From a virus, in IMG/VR virus record IMGVR_UViG_3300020429_000018, positions 1-21,060 of that record: a stretch of 21,060 nt of DNA; one strand, 5' to 3'. The notes under the pieces were generated by a model. That model had not been told where the DNA came from, searched no databases, and saw nothing but the letters and a program-made list of their open reading frames with translations. Positions 1 through 21,060 of this stretch are shown piece after piece (position 1 is the stretch's first letter; every line of letters starts with the position of its first letter). The position numbers were made by a program, and so were the translations under genes.

Positions 1-358
1 GACCTGTAAACAACTTACCTAACCATCCAAAGAATGTGGGTGCTGCTTTTGCCATTAATGCACCAACTGCTAGACCAATACCCATTTTATTACCTTTCTT
101 CATCTTACGAGCATTTGCTCTATCAATCTCAAGTTGATTTCTTCTCGATATTTCCTGCATTTGAGCATTCTGTTGTGCTCTCGCTGCTTGTACTGCTACA
201 CCTATACTATTAACTGTTATCCCTAGGGAATTAATTGCTTTAATGGTTGTGGAAAAACTTGACCCCGATACTTGTTTACCGCCAATCGAAATCTTTGCAC
301 CCTCATCTTTAGGTGGTGCAATAAATTTATAAAATCGTATGGTCTTCTTTTCTGCCAT
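1..358 (-). CDS. Tail/virion structural protein, N-terminal part only (runs off left edge)
   Basis: Begins with ATG at 358, overlapping the TAA of the upstream 766-aa gene by one base (TAATG), so the two are translationally linked. About 119 residues are visible. The protein starts MAEKKTIRFYKFIAPP, has a short polar middle (QEISRRNQLEIDRANARK) and then a hydrophobic segment (MGIGLAVGALMAKAAPTFF). Its first 80 or so residues resemble those of the 766-aa neighbour: a KF-APP-like start, an AINxxG segment, and an L-E-(I/L)-D-R motif. The two are therefore probably tandem paralogues by N-terminal duplication. Position downstream of gp26 and the large tail protein suggests a tail or baseplate component. 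No function can be read from the fragment itself. Confidence 0.75.
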   Translation of the reverse strand, partial: MAEKKTIRFYKFIAPPKDEGAKISIGGKQVSGSSFSTTIKAINSLGITVNSIGVAVQAARAQQNAQMQEISRRNQLEIDRANARKMKKGNKMGIGLAVGALMAKAAPTFFGWLGKLFTG

Positions 359-2658
359 TAGTAAACTGTTGCCTCATTTTGATTGTGTGATACAAGCACT
401 TCACCACCTGTAACAACAACAGGTTGGTTTATTGGTTGAACTATCGTTACACCAGTTCCACCATTATTCACTATATACTCTTTGTCATTCTTCAAATCAT
501 TTACATTGATAGTACCATTACCACTATTTATTTCTTTAGGGTTAACTGTGTTACTTAAAATCTCTGCTTGCTCTGCGGGAGGGAATATCGTAGGATATTG
601 CTTATCTAATGGAAGTATATTCTTATTATATTTTCCTCTAGGTTTTATTTTATGGTTTCTATATGCCTGTGCTACAAGAAATGTAGATGATGAGTCCATC
701 ATACCTAAAAGTGGGTTAAGACTACGATGTTTTCTAGCATCTATTAACTCACCTATTTTATCACCAGGTTTTACCCTTGTTTTATGGGCAACAGTAGGTT
801 CCACATTTCTGTAGTTAATATCTGGATTTTCACCATCACCCTCAATAATCATCCCTGCCTTTAAATATCCTTTTTTGTGATAATCATACTGACGTATCTT
901 ACCTGCTTTTATAGCAAAAACGTCTATTGGGAAACTTTCTGGATTTCTAGGTCTTATAACCATACCATTTTTTAACCCTGTCCTATCTTTAATAGGTTCT
1001 GCATCTCTATCTAAGAATCCATCTTTTAATGGGAATTTAGCAGCAAGTTCTGCTGTCTGAGTTTCGTTTTTTTGTGCTGTTTGTTCTGCTATTAGTGTTT
1101 GTTCCTTTGCCTGTAATTGTGCTAGATATTGTTTCTCTTTCTCAATACGTTCTGAGACAGAAAATCTCCATTTTGCCCACCAAGGTCCTCTATAGTCTTC
1201 ACCTTCCTCTTCTTGAATTTTTTCTAGCATTTTTATCTTTGCTAGACTGTCTGCTACAGTTAAAGATTGATTTTCTACTCTTCTGTCTATTTTATCTTGA
1301 TCGTCACCTAAATTTAATAAATTTGCAGTACTATTAACCAATCTCTTACCAGAATTGACTAATCTAACTAAGTTATACATCGCTTCCTCTGCCCAAGGAC
1401 TATTGATTATTTCATTAATCCTTTGTATTCCTGCATCTATAAGGGGTTTAAATATTTCTTCCAGTTTGACGAAAAGTGGTGCCAACCCTTCATTCCATAG
1501 GTCTGCAAACGCTTGTGTCACTCCACTAAAAAATTTCTTGAAGATCTGGAAGTACATTCCAAATGCTCTTTGTATAGGTTTGAACAAAGGTGTTATAGCA
1601 TCACCTAAGAAAGCACCTATCTTATCTCCAAGAAATGATCCTACAAATTGACCAACAATAGGACCAAATGGACCAAGAATAGGTGTAAGTAGTGCTGACA
1701 ATGCCAAACCACCAATAACAGCACCTGCACCACCTCCAACTGCGTTTTGCATTGATTTACCAGATGCTAATCTGTTTCCAAATGAGAATGCACCTGCCAA
1801 TACTGACATTCCTCCACCTTTGAGAAACTTACCACCCACTTTCATAAATTTGCTACCACCACCTCGTAGAAACTTACCTCCCCTTTGTAAAAATCTACCA
1901 CTCCTCACTTTTGCCAAACGTTTCATACGAAGGAGTTTTCTGGCACGTAATTGTTTATTTAATTGTCTCTGTCTTACTATTCTTCTACCTTCTGCAAATT
2001 TAGATCCAGGTTTACGATATTTGAACGCTTTATAAAATTTCTCTAATTTTTTATAGTCACCAATTAATTTCCAAGGTCGTAATATTCTAGTTGCTAAAAA
2101 TAATCCTCCAATACCACTGACAATTTTTAAAACTGCCATAAGTGGACTCTTTGTTCCAAGTCCATCAAGTATTAGTCCTATGCTTCCTGTGGTTACTTTG
2201 TAGAGAGTTTTGAACCACCCACCTATGACTGCTAGTCCTATTCTTAGATCATTTCTTTTTCCAGGTTGTTGTAAGAAAGTTAAAACACTCCAACCAAGAA
2301 ATGCTTTTGCTAACCACTTTAGGGGTTTTAAAAGTGCTTCTACCCACCCGATTTTCTTGGGTGCCTTTTTGATTCCTTTTTTGGCACCATCTTCGATGTC
2401 TTTTTTGTCTAGATCTTGTTCGTACTGCTCTTCTGCCTTCCTATCTAGTTCTAACTGTCTCTTACGATCATTCTCTGCATTGATTAGACTTCCCTGTGCT
2501 GCTGCCAAGTCATCAACCATTAACTGACCAATATCTGCCACAGCAAAACCCATCCTGTTGATAGCAAAATTTAGAGTCTTAACAGGATCTCCTTGCGGTC
2601 CACCTGGGGTGGGTGCAAGAAACTTTTTAATCTTTAATGGTGATGCTGTTTTTGCCAC
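358..2658 (-). CDS. Large tail protein, tape-measure-like, with degenerate M23-like C-terminal domain
   Basis: 766 aa. It starts with GTG at 2658, directly abutting the TAA of the gp51-like frame at 2659-2661. Residues 50-100 are charged and probably helical. Hydrophobic stretches lie at about 115-130, 140-190 and 305-350. Residues 250-285 carry a basic Gly-rich repeat (GGKFL/GGxKF). A helical region follows to about 540. Residues 560-640 resemble a lysostaphin-type (M23) beta fold: PIDVFAIKAGKI, then GMIIEGDGENPD, then VKPGDKIGEL, but the zinc-binding His/Asp residues are not evident. Long helical proteins with membrane-like segments, coded right after a frameshifted tail chaperone, are usually tape measure proteins. 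T4 gp29 is 590 aa, so this would be large. The tape-measure role is inferred from context and composition; 'large tail structural protein' is the safer name. Confidence 0.7.
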   Translation of the reverse strand: MAKTASPLKIKKFLAPTPGGPQGDPVKTLNFAINRMGFAVADIGQLMVDDLAAAQGSLINAENDRKRQLELDRKAEEQYEQDLDKKDIEDGAKKGIKKAPKKIGWVEALLKPLKWLAKAFLGWSVLTFLQQPGKRNDLRIGLAVIGGWFKTLYKVTTGSIGLILDGLGTKSPLMAVLKIVSGIGGLFLATRILRPWKLIGDYKKLEKFYKAFKYRKPGSKFAEGRRIVRQRQLNKQLRARKLLRMKRLAKVRSGRFLQRGGKFLRGGGSKFMKVGGKFLKGGGMSVLAGAFSFGNRLASGKSMQNAVGGGAGAVIGGLALSALLTPILGPFGPIVGQFVGSFLGDKIGAFLGDAITPLFKPIQRAFGMYFQIFKKFFSGVTQAFADLWNEGLAPLFVKLEEIFKPLIDAGIQRINEIINSPWAEEAMYNLVRLVNSGKRLVNSTANLLNLGDDQDKIDRRVENQSLTVADSLAKIKMLEKIQEEEGEDYRGPWWAKWRFSVSERIEKEKQYLAQLQAKEQTLIAEQTAQKNETQTAELAAKFPLKDGFLDRDAEPIKDRTGLKNGMVIRPRNPESFPIDVFAIKAGKIRQYDYHKKGYLKAGMIIEGDGENPDINYRNVEPTVAHKTRVKPGDKIGELIDARKHRSLNPLLGMMDSSSTFLVAQAYRNHKIKPRGKYNKNILPLDKQYPTIFPPAEQAEILSNTVNPKEINSGNGTINVNDLKNDKEYIVNNGGTGVTIVQPINQPVVVTGGEVLVSHNQNEATVY
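525..532 (-). promoter_or_regulatory. Putative T4-type late promoter octamer AATAAATA
   Basis: On the minus strand this reads AATAAATA, matching the NATAAATA late-promoter octamer of T4-like phages. It lies inside the 3' part of the 766-aa gene, about 167 bases upstream of the start at 358, and could give the truncated left-edge gene extra late transcription. A single octamer in AT-rich DNA can be chance. Confidence 0.35.
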
Positions 2659-2859
2659 TTACAATGATTGGTGTTGTGCGTTCGCTTGTTTCTGACGTGC
2701 TTCTTCCTCACGAAGATGTCGTATGAGCATATTTACATAGACATCCCTCTCCCAAGGCATCATAGATTCTAATTCAGTCAGACTATACTTGTGATGCTGC
2801 ATCAATGCAAAGTTCACTTCATATAGATTCATCAATGTATCGTGTGAGAGGGCTATGCG
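2659..2859 (-). CDS. gp51-like tail assembly chaperone extension, probably made by -1 frameshift from gp26
   Basis: This frame is open from just after the slippery site at the end of gp26 to a TAA at 2659-2661, giving 66 codons after the slip. The peptide begins RIALSHDTLMNLYEVNF and contains the motif MMPWERDVYVNMLIRHLREE. That kind of 'MPWER-hydrophobic-EE' pattern is seen in T4-like gp51 and in tail assembly chaperone T-extensions (from memory). The first in-frame ATG is at 2832, which would give only 57 aa and has no good ribosome binding site, so independent initiation looks unlikely. It abuts the GTG of the large tail protein. A G/GT-like pair just before the tape measure gene is the classical tail chaperone layout. 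A separately initiated small gp51 is the alternative. Confidence 0.6.
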   Translation of the reverse strand, partial: RIALSHDTLMNLYEVNFALMQHHKYSLTELESMMPWERDVYVNMLIRHLREEEARQKQANAQHQSL

Positions 2860-3563
2860 AAAAAACTTGCCATCCCCTCTAATAACATCTCACTTTTTTT
2901 CTCAGTCTTAGGATTGAAAACTTCAATAGTATGAGATACTTTAGGCATTGTCTCAAAGAAAGATTGTACTTTTTGAAACTGCATATTATTCATACCTTCA
3001 AAGAAACTTATGAGTTCTCCCTTCTTGTATGCTTTTGCGTTCTCTACCTCTTCACCGTTAGCGATTTGGTCTACGCAATCTGCTGCAAGTTGGAAAATGT
3101 CATCAAGTTTAGGTTCATCTGCTAAATTATTCTTCACAAATGTATCAATAGAAGGATACTTCATTACAAGTGTGACATCATCAGTAATTTTTATTTTATT
3201 TGTATGGTTATCAGGAACAACAACCTCAACTTCCTCAAGATTGACTTCAACATCAACTTGTGTTTCATTATCATCAGGAGCAGTCACTTTAAACTCACTG
3301 ACTTCACCTACTGACTTAGCACGAATGCGTAAGAACAAATATTCAATATCAAATGTAGCAAGTGAATCTACCTTCTTTACACTCGTACAATTTTTAATAA
3401 TTTCTTTTACTGCCTTGATCATTTCCTTTTGATCTTGAGATTCCATTGCCATATAAAGCAATTTCTCTTCACGAACTAGGAATGGACGATATGTTACCTT
3501 TTGACCAAATGGTAAGGTACATTCATACTCAGGGACCACGAGGGTCGGTAATGGCATTGGCAT
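2853..3563 (-). CDS. 26: Baseplate hub assembly protein gp26 (tail chaperone-like)
   Basis: 236 aa starting at ATG 3563. The N-terminus (MPMPLPTLVVPEYECTLP, then VTYRPFLVREEKLLYMAME) matches my recollection of the T4 gp26 / T4_baseplate family, in which a P-x-L-x-x-P-x-Y start and a Y-R-P-F-L-V-(K/R)-E-E-K motif are diagnostic. T4 gp26 is 208 aa, so the size fits. In T4, gp26 helps assemble the baseplate hub. Here the gene ends in a slippery TTTTTTC that would let a fraction of ribosomes make a fusion of about 301 aa with the following frame. A CTAAATA-type promoter lies 28 bases upstream. The family call is confident; the chaperone role rests on analogy with G/GT systems. Confidence 0.85.
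   Translation of the reverse strand: MPMPLPTLVVPEYECTLPFGQKVTYRPFLVREEKLLYMAMESQDQKEMIKAVKEIIKNCTSVKKVDSLATFDIEYLFLRIRAKSVGEVSEFKVTAPDDNETQVDVEVNLEEVEVVVPDNHTNKIKITDDVTLVMKYPSIDTFVKNNLADEPKLDDIFQLAADCVDQIANGEEVENAKAYKKGELISFFEGMNNMQFQKVQSFFETMPKVSHTIEVFNPKTEKKSEMLLEGMASFFA
2859..2879 (-). promoter_or_regulatory. Programmed -1 frameshift signal: slippery T_TTT_TTC with upstream Shine-Dalgarno-like GAGGGG
   Basis: On the minus strand the last gp26 codons read GCA AGT TTT TTC GCA TAG. The heptamer T_TTT_TTC (2865 down to 2859) is in the correct phase for tandem -1 slippage. After the slip, reading continues CGC ATA GCC into the gp51-like frame, skipping the gp26 stop at 2853-2855. GAGGGG (2874-2879) lies 8 bases upstream of the slippery site, where an internal Shine-Dalgarno stimulates -1 frameshifting in bacterial dnaX. 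No strong downstream hairpin was found by eye. Confidence 0.6.
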
Positions 3564-3601: not shown

Positions 3602-4291
3602 CTAACTTAGGATCACCTTCTCATCTGTAAATACATCAACGTTCCAGTCTCCTGCTGTTTTCAGTAATGCTTCCATACGTAATCTTTCTACTCTGAACTG
3701 AACATCTAGTTTCATTAGTTGTTGAGGTCCATTATTAAATTTCATTGTACTTACATTAACTGGGAAACAATTAAATGCAGTCCATACTGCTGTTGGTTTA
3801 TTTAATCTAGTCTTTCCCACTACCTTTCCGTTATTATCTATTGCTCTTAGCACCTCATTAGAACCACTTTCAAACTTTGTTATCTCTATGTCTGCCACAT
3901 AGTCATCATAAAACATAGTTCTATTATCACTATCTCTGCTGATTATTTGGATCCAACGATCAAAAACATATCTTGTCCACTGATTTCTTGTAACTAAGAA
4001 TTGTATGTTCATCTCTTGTGGTTGCTGTTGTGTAGCAAACTTTCTTTGAATACCAAAGTTCTGAACATCTCCTGTCATCAATGCTCTTGATGGTATCATC
4101 ACCTCATCTGCAAGATAGTCTATTGCATCTGTCCACTCTCTTAGTTCTATTGTTCCACCAGGACTTAATTTATTATCAGGTCCTGCAAATACGAAACGTG
4201 GAGTATCTATGTGTACCTGAAAGAGATTAGTTCTCGTAGGTTCATATGCTCCTGTTCCTATAAAATTTTGAAAACCTCTAAAATTTCTCAT
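3602..4291 (-). CDS. 54: Tail tube-related protein, probable baseplate tail-tube initiator gp54
   Basis: 229 aa. Starts at ATG 4291, overlapping the upstream gene by four bases (ATGA). The N-terminus GTGAYEPTRTNLFQVHIDTP resembles the 'xRPNLFxVxI' opening of the T4 gp19 tail-tube family, to which gp48 and gp54 are related. A further motif, IPSRALMTGDVQNFG, looks like the 'P(G/S)xxixtxxvxxfG' segment of tube proteins. With gp48 and gp53 next door, the missing tube initiator gp54 is the best fit, although T4 gp54 is longer (320 aa). The tail tube protein gp19 itself or another tube-like protein is possible. gp19 usually lies beside the sheath gene gp18, which is not in this window. Confidence 0.6.
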   Translation of the reverse strand: MRNFRGFQNFIGTGAYEPTRTNLFQVHIDTPRFVFAGPDNKLSPGGTIELREWTDAIDYLADEVMIPSRALMTGDVQNFGIQRKFATQQQPQEMNIQFLVTRNQWTRYVFDRWIQIISRDSDNRTMFYDDYVADIEITKFESGSNEVLRAIDNNGKVVGKTRLNKPTAVWTAFNCFPVNVSTMKFNNGPQQLMKLDVQFRVERLRMEALLKTAGDWNVDVFTDEKVILS

Positions 4292-5204: not shown

Positions 5205-6284
5205 ATGCCATTAGTATATCCTAGATCAATAACAGGTAGTTCTCTCGGTATCTCAAGAGGAGATTCTTTCGAGACTGCTTTCGTTGATTACCTACAGATC
5301 AAAATATATAGTTCCGAAAAAGGAAATCCATATACTTACATCGGTCAAGGTAGTGGAACCAACTCAAACTATGGAGAAGGTCAAGTCCTTGGAGGTGGTG
5401 GAGAAGCAGAAGGAAGTATTAACGAAACTATTTATTTATACCTACCTCCACAATTAAAAGAGTCATATTCTACACAATATCAGAAAACTACTGTTGGTGC
5501 TGCGGGTATGGCAGCACTAGACGCATTTGCTAATGCAGCAGCAGGTCAGGAGCAAAGTTTGATAGACAAGATTCAAGATACTGCTAAAGGTGTAACTCCT
5601 CAATTTGTTATGGATAAAATTGGATCTGCTGTGGGTACTGTCAACAGTGCTATAATGGGTTCTGGTAATGCAGGTAACTTAGATGCTAATAGTGTTGCTG
5701 CGTTGACTAAGAGAAAAATATTCAACCCATATCAAGAGACAACATTTCGTGGCACAAACTATCGTTCTCATACTTTTACTTTTCAATGCCAAGCAAGAAA
5801 TCCAAGAGAAGCACAAGAACTGTTCCGTATAATTGCTGCACTTCGTAAAGCAATGCTACCTGGATTGCAAGATTCAACAGATGAAGATCCAAGTGCAGGT
5901 AATGGAATCGCTGATGATGTTGAAGGGGAAACTAATCAAAACCTAGTCAACGCAGCATTTAGAGGTGGTGCAGCAGGATCAGGTCGTTGGTTAACTATAC
6001 CTGATTACTTTAGACTAGATATTATTCGTGTAGAAGGAAAAGCAAATGCAGATGGTGAGGTAGAGATGACAGGTTCATCTCCAATGGGTTTGAAAAGAAT
6101 TATGCAATTCCCTACTAGATTAGTGTTAAAAGATCTAAATTTAAACCTATCACCTAACGGTCCATACAATTCATTGAAAGATGCTCTTGATACAGGTGTG
6201 GATTATGGTCCTGCCAATTTTCAAATGACTCTAACGTTTGATGAGACAGCATTCTTAACCAAGGCATCACTAGCAGACATCTAA
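5205..6284 (+). CDS. 48: Baseplate tail tube cap gp48
   Basis: 359 aa, near the 364 aa of T4 gp48. It starts at ATG 5205, six bases from the gp4 ATG on the other strand. N-terminal MPLVYPRSITGSSLGISRGD is followed by an Ile/Leu-rich segment and a 'xIYLYLPPQLKESYSxxY' motif typical of the family, then an Ala/Gly-rich helical region (residues about 95-160). A tube-like segment FRGTNYRSHTFTFQCQARNP (about 183-202) resembles the tube fold shared with gp54 and gp19. gp48 caps the central baseplate hub and, with gp54, starts tail tube polymerisation. The stop overlaps the gp53 start by one base (TAATG). Late expression is expected from TATAAATA at 5120-5127. Confidence 0.85.
   Translation: MPLVYPRSITGSSLGISRGDSFETAFVDYLQIKIYSSEKGNPYTYIGQGSGTNSNYGEGQVLGGGGEAEGSINETIYLYLPPQLKESYSTQYQKTTVGAAGMAALDAFANAAAGQEQSLIDKIQDTAKGVTPQFVMDKIGSAVGTVNSAIMGSGNAGNLDANSVAALTKRKIFNPYQETTFRGTNYRSHTFTFQCQARNPREAQELFRIIAALRKAMLPGLQDSTDEDPSAGNGIADDVEGETNQNLVNAAFRGGAAGSGRWLTIPDYFRLDIIRVEGKANADGEVEMTGSSPMGLKRIMQFPTRLVLKDLNLNLSPNGPYNSLKDALDTGVDYGPANFQMTLTFDETAFLTKASLADI
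5433..5440 (-). promoter_or_regulatory. Perfect T4-type late promoter TATAAATA for the gp4 operon
   Basis: On the minus strand this reads TATAAATA, exact late consensus, 234 bases upstream of the gp4 ATG and inside gp48 on the plus strand. It is the mirror of the gp48 promoter at 5120-5127, so the two divergent units have promoters nested in each other's coding sequence and overlapping transcripts. Confidence 0.6.
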
Positions 6285-7360
6285 TGGCATATTTTAAATT
6301 CCTACCTAAAGTTTACGTAAGAAATAAGACTAGGGTTGATGGCACTCAACCATATGAACTAGCAGTAAACATTTTTAGACGCATTAAAGTAAGAGATGAC
6401 TTACAAGGTTCACTACTTGGTTTTATACAATATGAAATACAAGATGGAGAAAGACCAGACCAAGTTGCATTTAATATTTACAAAGATGCAGGACTTGATT
6501 GGGTTCTTCTCTTGGTAAATAATATTATAAATGTTAATGAAGACTGGCCAATGAATCGTGAAGATTTAATGGGTTATGTTCGAGATAAGTATGGTTCTGT
6601 AGAGGGAGTTAGTCACTATGAAACACAGGAATATAAAGATCCTAGTCTTGATCTCGTTCTACTTCCTGGTGGGATCACTGTTTCAGAGTCTTACCAATAT
6701 ACGAAACCCGATGGGTCCGTCCTTACAAAATCCCAATCTAGAAATTCTATATCCTACTACGACTACGAGTCCAAAATAAATGATACTAAAAGAAATATTT
6801 ACATTCTAAGACCACAATATCTAACAGATTTTATAGCAGAGTTTAGAAGATTAGCAAGGTATCTACCCAATGCTGAGGTAGATGTTGATGGTAACAAAAA
6901 GACTGAAGGGTCACTTGCAGAGGAGTTTATCGGACTACCTAGATATAATAGACCTAGACAAAGCACCGCGTCTACAGGTTCTGCATCAGGTGGTGGTTCT
7001 TCTACTGCGTTGATAGCATCAGGTGGTTCATCAGCAGCAACAGAAACAGCAACCACTTCAACATCATCAGGTGTAACAATAAGTACAACAGATACAGATG
7101 CCTCTTCCTCTACCACTTATAGTGATACATCATCTTCTAGTTCAAGTTCCTCGTCAAGCAGTGGAGGATACGGTTCATCGAGTTCATCGAGTTCATCAAG
7201 TTCTTCATCCTCAAGTGGATCGAGCAGTTCTAGTTCTTCTGGTAGTTCTTCTAGTTCTAGCGGGTCTTCGGGATCGTCGTCAGGATCATCAGGATCATCA
7301 GGATCTTCTGGCGGTGGATACGGTGGAGGATATGGCGGTGGATACGGTGGAGGGTACTAA
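6284..7360 (+). CDS. 53: Baseplate wedge protein gp53 with a long Ser/Gly/Tyr-rich C-terminal tail
   Basis: About 358 aa; T4 gp53 is 196 aa. Residues 1-220 carry the family features: MAYFKFLPKVYV, a LysM-like segment (IQDGERPDQVAFNIYKDAG), DWVLLLVNNIINVNEDWPM and YILRPQYLTDFIAEF. gp53 joins neighbouring wedges at the baseplate. From about residue 226 the sequence turns into Ser/Thr-rich, then nearly pure Ser with Gly and isolated Tyr, ending in GGYGGG repeats. The tail is in frame, without interruption, to TAA at 7358-7360, which overlaps the opposite gene's stop at 7357-7359. The tail is not needed for the gp53 fold and may be a flexible or adhesive extension on the baseplate rim. Confidence 0.85.
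   Translation: MAYFKFLPKVYVRNKTRVDGTQPYELAVNIFRRIKVRDDLQGSLLGFIQYEIQDGERPDQVAFNIYKDAGLDWVLLLVNNIINVNEDWPMNREDLMGYVRDKYGSVEGVSHYETQEYKDPSLDLVLLPGGITVSESYQYTKPDGSVLTKSQSRNSISYYDYESKINDTKRNIYILRPQYLTDFIAEFRRLARYLPNAEVDVDGNKKTEGSLAEEFIGLPRYNRPRQSTASTGSASGGGSSTALIASGGSSAATETATTSTSSGVTISTTDTDASSSTTYSDTSSSSSSSSSSSGGYGSSSSSSSSSSSSSSGSSSSSSSGSSSSSSGSSGSSSGSSGSSGSSGGGYGGGYGGGYGGGY
7126..7357 (+). repeat. Low-complexity Ser/Gly codon repeat inside gp53
   Basis: Tandem TCA/TCG/AGT/TCT serine codons (9-base units such as TCATCGAGT repeated at about 7166-7200), then GGA-TCA units, then a 12-base GGTGGATACGGT-like repeat at the end encoding GGYG. Mixed use of all six serine codons indicates selection for serine as well as slippage. 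Confidence 0.8.
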
Positions 7361-20083: not shown

Positions 20084-20278
20084 AATATTAAAGGGGAGGT
20101 TGGATTCCTGTGTACCAACAAGAGCGAGGCATTTCTACAGTTAGAAATTTCACTCTGCCTACGTCCTACTTGGTTGAGTAGTTCTGCCTTTCGACAGCGA
20201 GCACCACCTCTGACGTATCACCTTAACTAGCAAAATGCCAGTAAGTTTATTCAGTCACTCCCTGTGTCGCGTCCGACT
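20046..20278 (-). ncRNA. Candidate structured noncoding RNA (about 235 nt) with own promoter and terminator
   Basis: Transcription would start near 20278 from a TTGACA-17-TATTAT promoter and end at the strong hairpin 20046-20083. Helices read by eye: 20222-20231 with 20237-20245 (one bulge); 20160-20165 with 20212-20217, enclosing two hairpins, 20184-20188 with 20193-20197 closed by GAAA, and 20166-20170 with 20177-20181; 20131-20137 with 20142-20148 (7 perfect pairs) extended by 20121-20126 with 20151-20156; and 20099-20103 with 20115-20119. No ORF of credible length covers 20083-20246. Possible long-range pairing GGGAG/CTCCC and GAGGT/ACCTC. It does not match a 6S RNA, tRNA, tmRNA or RNase P pattern I know. 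The first 30 nt overlap the end of a 58-aa ORF. Confidence 0.5.
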
Positions 20279-20423
20279 CTTGTATAATAACAGAACCGTC
20301 GCACTGTGTCAACCCCCTATTATGGTATCCGATATGTGCTAACTCAATAAGAGTAAAAGACCCTACCAACAATAGATTAAATGTGGTTACAGGGTGAGTT
20401 AAGACTTTAAATACCGCTTTCAT
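20247..20423 (-). CDS. Possible 58-aa small membrane protein
   Basis: ATG at 20423 (MKAVFKVLTHPVTTFNLLLV) to TAA at 20247-20249. Residues 12-30 form one hydrophobic helix (VTTFNLLLVGSFTLIELAHI). It begins two bases after the T-run of the psbD terminator, without a clear Shine-Dalgarno. The composition looks like the small membrane proteins of cyanophages, but the consensus promoter at 20284-20312 lies in its 3' half. It may be real, overlapping the RNA gene, or chance. Confidence 0.35.
   Translation of the reverse strand: MKAVFKVLTHPVTTFNLLLVGSFTLIELAHIGYHNRGLTQCDGSVIIQESDATQGVTE
20284..20312 (-). promoter_or_regulatory. Sigma70 promoter TTGACA-17 bp-TATTAT
   Basis: Minus strand: -35 TTGACA (20312 to 20307), 17-base spacer, -10 TATTAT (20289 to 20284). 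Six of six and five of six consensus bases at ideal spacing make this the best host-type promoter in the window. Expected start near 20278. It lies inside the 58-aa ORF, which weakens that ORF or makes the two overlap. Confidence 0.6.
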
Positions 20424-20476: not shown

Positions 20477-20484
20477 TATTTATA
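20477..20484 (-). promoter_or_regulatory. TATAAATA octamer over the psbD stop codon
   Basis: Exact late consensus on the minus strand, formed by the final Leu codon, TAA stop and the next bases. It stands only 25 bases before the psbD terminator, so a transcript from it would be very short unless the terminator is read through into the 58-aa ORF. Listed as an observation with low weight. Confidence 0.25.
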
Positions 20485-21060
20485 ATGCGTTACCTCTTGG
20501 CAACACTTCTTCTGGGAACACAAAGTTCTCGTGTGGTTGGTCAACTGATGACATCCACGCTCTCATACCTTCATTTAAAAGAATATTCTTTGTATAGAAA
20601 GTCTCGAACTCTGGGTCTTCTGCTGCTCTTATCTCTTGAGATACAAAGTCGTATGCTCTGAGGTTAAGTGCAAGACCTACGATGCCGATAGATGATGTCC
20701 ACATACCCATAACAGGTACGAATAACATGAGGAAATGTAAGAACCTTTTGTTACTGAAAGCGATTCCGAATATCTGTGACCAGAATCTGTTTGCGGTAAT
20801 CATACTGTAAGTTTCTTCATCCTGTGTAGGATCAAATCCTCTGAACGTTGTGCTCAGTGATTCTCCCTCACTATAAATTGAACCGTCTTCATACAATGTA
20901 TTCTGTACGGTTGCACCGTGGATAGCACATAGAAGTGCTCCACCTAAGATTCCTGCAACACCCATCATGTGAAATGGATTCAGTGTAATGTTGTGGAAAC
21001 CTTGAATGAATAGGATGTAACGGAAGATTGCTGCGACACCGAATGATGGTGCGAAGAACC
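20480..21060 (-). CDS. psbD: Photosystem II reaction centre protein D2 (PsbD), C-terminal part; start beyond right edge
   Basis: About 193 C-terminal residues are visible; whole D2 is about 352 aa. The text [34 protein letters not shown] (the His that binds non-haem iron and QA), [27 protein letters not shown] (second iron His) and [20 protein letters not shown] with the C-terminus [12 protein letters not shown] are plainly D2. With D1, D2 holds the charge-separating cofactors in the thylakoid. Phage copies keep photosynthesis running while host psbA/psbD decay. Between ED and FRGF the loop reads [13 protein letters not shown] (13 residues) where I recall 6 in cyanobacterial D2, so the D-E loop seems enlarged by about seven. 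A terminator follows at 20426-20455. A TATAAATA spans the stop. Confidence 0.96.

Follow-up and report, generated by a model that had tools for sequence, protein, structure and literature searches.

The window analyzed here is the whole 21,060-nucleotide stretch of viral DNA, positions 1 to 21,060 of IMG/VR record IMGVR_UViG_3300020429_000018. On its minus strand, a tail tube-like gene (3602..4291; PHROG 45 "tail tube," E = 2.5e-35) lies upstream of gp26 (2853..3563), which starts with ATG, encodes 236 aa, ends with a TAG stop at 2855-2853, and is a putative short tail assembly chaperone (TAC-N). Overlapping the end of gp26 on the same strand is an open reading frame (ORF) in the -1 frame (2662..2859; 66 codons, RIALSHDTL...QHQSL; stop TAA at 2661-2659), which would supply the gp51-like TAC-C part of a fusion protein. 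gp51 is present in the window solely as this 66-codon extension; a full-length gp51 gene of its own is absent. The overlapping pair sits just upstream of a 766-aa ORF (358..2658, minus strand), whose GTG start at 2658 immediately follows the -1 frame stop. This ORF may be tape-measure-like, as suggested by its position and by PHROG families labelled tail length tape measure, to which its matches are weak (best E = 7e-5); endolysin-labelled PHROG families match somewhat better (best E = 7.7e-12).

Elsewhere in the window, a minus-strand gene that enters with its 3′ part (20480-21058; Photo_RC, E = 1.7e-32) encodes a photosynthetic reaction centre protein; it is probably psbD and marks the window as cyanophage DNA. 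A manA RNA motif (20089-20279, minus strand; Rfam RF01745, 174.9 bits), a cis-regulatory RNA, lies downstream of this photosystem II D2-like gene. The plus strand carries a gp53-like baseplate wedge protein gene (6284-7360; PHROG 232 and Pfam gp53), the product of which has a long Ser/Gly-rich low-complexity tail with GGGY repeats at its end.

The 3′ end of gp26 reads GAG GGG ATG GCA AGT TTT TTC GCA TAG. A sequence-only reading of the window had placed a slippery heptamer here, in phase for a -1 shift, and T_TTT_TTC indeed occupies 2859..2865 on the minus strand, exact to the base. GAGGGG, a probable internal Shine-Dalgarno sequence (2874..2879, minus strand), lies 8 nt 5′ of the heptamer, as had also been claimed, with the spacer ATGGCAAG. 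Reading in the -1 frame begins at the re-read C (2859), and the 66 open codons end where the next ORF starts, again in agreement with the earlier description. On recount, the predicted fusion comprises 235 aa through the second Phe plus 66, giving the 301 aa that had been estimated. It would yield the tryptic peptide SEMLLEGMASFFR, ending in FFR, and the short form the C-terminal peptide SEMLLEGMASFFA, ending in FFA. The assertion that the -1 frame has no well-placed start also holds: its first candidates, TTG at 2835 and ATG at 2832, have no Shine-Dalgarno-like 4-mer 5 to 16 nt upstream.

To place the heptamer among relatives, two sets of loci were used. In the first (78 IMG/VR loci, four named phages, and the window), the heptamer stands one codon 5′ of the gp26 stop in 83/83. 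The second, an automatic scan of 136 sequences, gave a gp26 match in 134, of which 131 were untruncated and formed 56 clusters at 90% identity. Since loci repeat some viruses (HTVC008M occurs twice), counts are given by cluster. A comparison of relatives had been proposed as a check, and the scan finds an in-phase T_TTT_TT[C/T] in the final eight codons of gp26 in 53 of the 56 clusters (128 of 131 loci), spelled TTTTTTC in 50 and TTTTTTT in 3. The carriers include Kyanoviridae, pelagiphage HTVC008M, Sinorhizobium phages phiM12 and phiN3, Pseudomonas phage Astolliot, Cronobacter phage S13, Vibrio phages nt-1, V07, and QD01, Stenotrophomonas phages Marzo and Ps15, Agrobacterium phage OLIVR5, and Aeromonas phage phiAS5; Aeh1 and S-PM2, examined after the wider scan, have an in-phase T_TTT_TT[C/T] too. 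A chance poly-T tract was considered and rejected: besides its presence in 53/56 clusters, the gp26 site is the sole in-phase T_TTT_TTY in the 5,784 codons of 22 window ORFs, which we selected from the ORF list. The same ORFs hold 28 in-phase X_XXY_YYZ heptamers of any kind, and with random window codons the probability of an in-phase T_TTT_TTY in a gene's last ten codons is ∼0.0035.

Because the two Phe residues encoded by the heptamer are themselves conserved, nucleotide conservation was judged against other Phe sites, in 55 clusters (locus L116, discussed below, was left out). In the 53 clusters with Phe at the first position of the site, its codon is always TTT; at the second position, 52 clusters use TTC and 3 use TTT, whereas each of the nine other conserved gp26 Phe columns mixes TTT and TTC. 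The base before TTT is T in 53/53; elsewhere, 1,889 of 3,151 Ser/Ala/Asn/Asp/Gly codons (60%) end in T.

The scan missed the site in three clusters: Vibrio phage K413 (L093), Salmonella phage Vi01 (L126), and L116. The last is a scan artefact, as an in-frame stop lies upstream in gp26 and the real end has T_TTT_TTT, which brings the true misses down to two. On this HTVC008M-like contig (L116, 2440-2740), the in-frame stop precedes the real end by ∼210 nt with the slip site kept, and is either a sequencing error or real. K413 and Vi01, both distant, have lost the heptamer while the -1 frame after gp26 is still open, and in K413 an ATG overlaps the gp26 stop (TAATG); these phages may have switched to reinitiation or to another slip site. 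Loss of the heptamer with both frames persisting had been named as evidence against frameshifting if seen in close relatives; the pattern occurs in these two distant phages.

The frame that slippage would open behaves as coding sequence. In the 53 heptamer clusters, the -1 frame has no stop within 150 nt past the gp26 stop (contigs L075 and L104 end sooner), and both other frames have stops within that distance in 53/53. The substitution ratio just past the gp26 stop is 0.18 in the -1 frame, compared with 1.46 and 1.37 in the others (45 clusters), and in the -1 frame only are substitutions there mostly synonymous. Fourteen of the 53 clusters have no ATG, GTG, or TTG before +50, and their ratio is 0.21, versus 3.9 and 0.98. 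These ratios are given without P values because cluster pairs are not independent. The substitution patterns indicate that selection on the -1 frame acts at the protein level immediately past the gp26 stop, even where no start codon is present. The central proposal of the sequence-only reading, a -1 programmed frameshift giving a gp26-gp51 fusion, thus draws strong support from both heptamer conservation and -1 frame coding in relatives.

The selection seen in the 14 clusters without a start is also what makes it improbable that gp51 is a separate small gene, translated from its own ATG or TTG or by termination-reinitiation at the gp26 stop, beside an incidental heptamer. Public records do annotate gp51 as a gene of its own, but its annotated starts differ in place, some records omit it, and separate initiation would not explain why T TTT TTC is fixed. 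An ATG occurs in the -1 frame before +50 in 32/53 clusters, including the window (2832), so some separate initiation could take place; a start overlaps the gp26 stop in 9/53, and K413 combines its TAATG with a lost heptamer. A Shine-Dalgarno-like 4-mer lies 5 to 16 nt before such a start in only one of the 53 clusters (Marzo, L091). Initiation of gp51 from a good ribosome binding site had been named as counterevidence; by this simple 4-mer test it is found in that one cluster and not in the rest. None of 27 T4-like records other than T4 annotates gp26 as a joined gene; E+E′ of P2 is annotated as one.

Still less probable is slippage of RNA polymerase, rather than of the ribosome, on the T run, producing a fusion mRNA. 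The site is a homopolymer, one inserted base would likewise give the -1 frame, and three of the 53 clusters (HTVC008M, phiM12, and L122 types) have seven or eight T. In the other 50, however, exactly six T are closed by C. The preceding codon ends in a single T, so the tract never reaches further upstream, and a constant phase and closing C are what tRNA re-pairing predicts. RNA polymerase slippage usually needs longer runs.

We next consider elements that may stimulate ribosomal frameshifting. The Glu of an LEGL motif upstream of the heptamer has the codon GAG in 28 of the 36 clusters that keep Glu, compared with 382 of 1,268 Glu codons (30%) elsewhere in gp26, and of the 15 conserved Glu columns, this one among them, it has the top GAG share. 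The codon bias points to a probable internal Shine-Dalgarno sequence upstream of the heptamer in cyanophage-type loci. The suggestion that GAGGGG promotes frameshifting thus gains from the GAG bias in these loci and does not extend to several distant ones, in which the GAGG-type signal is absent or different.

RNA downstream of the heptamer may contribute as well. Against a synonymous-codon null, the stretch after the heptamer folds with a mean z of -2.36 (z < -2 in 22/40 clusters; an earlier run gave -2.13 and also 22/40); a control stretch inside gp26 gave -1.20 (7/40 clusters) under the same null, which is therefore itself not neutral. Against dinucleotide shuffles, the 80 nt past the heptamer have a mean z of -1.89 (53 clusters), compared with -0.15 from +60. 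Predicted pairing in the window's clade suggests a candidate stem that would connect 2858-2841 to 2756-2735 on the minus strand: its 5′ arm (2841..2858) starts right after the heptamer, and its 3′ arm (2735..2756) is made of 2756-2745 and 2740-2735. Pairing of the arms has a mean z of -2.56 in 11 clade clusters (-2.92 in the window), compared with -0.48 to 0.27 at five gp26 control positions; the clade mean is -1.64 when codon usage is taken from the gp51 region alone, and two of the 11 clusters (L020 and L055) give no signal of the long-range stem. Swapping arms among all 40 clusters reduces pairing from 496 to 480.0, and 4 of 2,000 shuffles reach the unswapped value; within the clade swapping hardly reduces it (160 versus 157.8 of 198), and 94/2,000 shuffles reach the unswapped value.

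Covariation of the stem is weak, with one cell changed on both sides; its score of 0.073 exceeds 500/500 shuffles, yet a slid version scores 0.068. RNAalifold retains only 3 pairs, in a different register, and Rfam at gathering thresholds finds nothing at the junction. The window's first 40 to 100 nt after the heptamer fold no better than shuffles (z of 0.61 to 1.62), whereas a longer stretch does. As covariation is indecisive and the near 40 to 100 nt are negative, the long-range stem is treated as a candidate only. In several other clades (loci L082, L083, L086, L088, L122, and L130), local hairpins, distinct from the long-range stem of the window's clade, are predicted just past the heptamer.

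The kinship of the products was assessed with sequence profiles. gp26 matches Pfam T4_baseplate (PF12322, E = 6.7e-67) and PHROG 150 "baseplate hub" (E = 4.3e-73). The -1 extension matches PHROG 634 "baseplate hub assembly catalyst" (E = 5.6e-30). It also matches the C-terminal part of PHROG 150, the gp26 family (E = 4.2e-7), which a family that includes joined members would predict; Pfam gives nothing for it with E of 1 or less. In NCBIfam, gp26 had a single match, below threshold, and the other queries had none. Against a joined gp26+gp51 profile built from the 53 clusters, T4 gp26 scores 81.3 bits (best of 2,000 shuffles, 9.7) and T4 gp51 scores 43.1 bits (best of 2,000 shuffles, 12.4), the latter match covering profile positions 23 to 283 of 298 and crossing the joint. 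T4 gp26 thus resembles the short form, and T4 gp51 the whole joined form, joint included. By these profile matches, T4 gp51 as a whole corresponds to the frameshift fusion and T4 gp26 to cyanophage gp26, and cyanophage "gp51" alone corresponds only to the C-terminal part of T4 gp51. A search for matches crossing the joint identified no gp26 fused in frame to gp51 in the place of gp26; its one-piece matches were to gp51 of Acinetobacter phages Acj9 and 133 and Citrobacter phage Moon, weak at E of 0.01 to 0.2. A PDB sequence search with the gp26 and gp51 profiles returned weak, chance-looking matches only.

Predicted structures add supportive evidence. The AlphaFold model of gp26 is confident, with a pLDDT of 87.5. 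When it was compared by VIA-align with 555 chains, those ranked highest by Foldseek, the HK97 tail assembly chaperone 2ob9 came first (Z of 7.6, below 8), with 84 residues of gp26 1-85 aligned at an rmsd of 4.9, followed by YqbN (3klu; Z of 7.0), which we take to be a prophage TAC, and 5ir0 (Z of 5.1). Foldseek itself places 2ob9 seventh (E = 1.7) and finds nothing significant for gp26 in the PDB, which leaves the evidence on the fold at the level of support. At E up to 0.001, gp26 matches 55 viral models, and many of the named ones are T4-like baseplate hub or gp26 proteins. The N-terminal domain of gp26 probably has a chaperone-like (TAC-N) fold. For the extension, the best AlphaFold model, also confident, has three helices and a pLDDT of 87.1 (other models, 63.7 to 79.5); structural comparison of this helical gp51 model found nothing above a Z of 2.9.

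Frameshifting by -1 in tail chaperone genes is textbook knowledge for lambda and P2. Lambda G/GT and P2 E/E+E′ have the arrangement proposed for the present locus: two overlapping ORFs, upstream of the tape measure gene, give a short and a long protein through a -1 slip on a slippery heptamer close to where the leading ORF ends. The P2 E slip site, T_TTT_TTG, lies before the tape measure gene and is almost the same as T_TTT_TTC here. P2 E has 91 aa, compared with 236 aa in gp26, and the gp51-like part has no sequence match to P2 E′ (-0.1 bits); short helical domains can diverge past sequence detection. The analogy with G/GT drawn by the sequence-only reading holds by position, by probable fold, and by the relation to T4 gp51. 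T4 itself differs: its gp26 and gp51 are separate genes on opposite strands, which makes frameshifting between them impossible, so that two genes do there what the slip site would do here within one locus.

Vladimirov, Gautam, and Davidson (2022; Virology 566:9-15) reportedly identified the TAC genes of T4-like phages, to go by the title. Two papers cite this work: some T4-like phages, rather than frameshifting, encode the short and the fused form in two genes (PMC10885494), and TAC-N genes of T4-like phages contain poly-T slippery sites (PMC12846349). Given these citations, the frameshift principle is in all likelihood already in print. Available sections of PMC12671138, PMC12859696, PMC9603447, and PMC11131426 cite the same work and contain nothing further on frameshifting. 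The earlier impression that such a mechanism had not been described for T4-like phages needs correction, as their TACs are treated in Vladimirov et al. 2022, the source cited for the poly-T sites. In other families, Vandenendeviridae and Andersonviridae, PMC12846349 describes a conserved -1 frameshift in the TAC, with poly-T GTTTTT at the TAC-N end, as here. Among titles and abstract openings, with most subscription journals outside the search, we recognized no paper describing the cyanophage case. The kind of frameshift is already known; what is added here is its breadth, a probable internal Shine-Dalgarno sequence, and weaker evidence for downstream RNA structure.

Sullivan et al. 2010 (PMC3037559) note that the first ∼200 residues of gp51 are absent in cyanophages and marine vibriophages, and that Aeh1 alone has no gp51. 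Frameshifting would account for both, the missing residues and the missing gene. Aeh1 has T_TTT_TTC and a -1 extension without a start before +50.

We conclude that this T4-superfamily cyanophage locus very probably encodes a tail assembly chaperone pair made by -1 frameshifting. Most ribosomes would end at the gp26 stop, yielding the short, 236-aa TAC-N chaperone. A minority would slip back one base on T_TTT_TTC, the Phe-tRNA on UUU/UUC re-pairing one base upstream, probably helped by the internal GAGG Shine-Dalgarno sequence 8 nt upstream and perhaps by downstream RNA structure. Slipped ribosomes would read the 66-codon gp51-like part and produce the 301-aa TAC-NC protein. On the model of lambda G/GT and P2 E/E+E′, the chaperones would coat the tape measure protein through their TAC-N part and recruit tail tube subunits through the C-terminal part. 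That slippage occurs, at whatever rate, and that the products act as chaperones is what we infer from comparative evidence.

A broader reading, which we offer tentatively and hold to be possible rather than probable, joins these observations. The TTTTTTC -1 frameshift may be the ancestral way of making TAC-NC across the T4 superfamily, taken here as the cyanophages, pelagiphages, and Vibrio, Aeromonas, Sinorhizobium, and Stenotrophomonas phages. T4 and its nearest relatives would have escaped it by duplication of the gene, their gp51 being a once-recoded fusion frozen in one frame, and in the window's clade the slip would be tuned by the long-range stem, which links the bases right after the heptamer to the PWERDVY codons ∼95 nt downstream. 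Cyanophages are abundant marine viruses whose gp51 is either left out of annotations or entered as a small gene of its own, and frameshifting would supply a simple rule for its re-annotation. Recoding and gene duplication would then be two solutions to one stoichiometry problem, which could be compared within a single phage superfamily.
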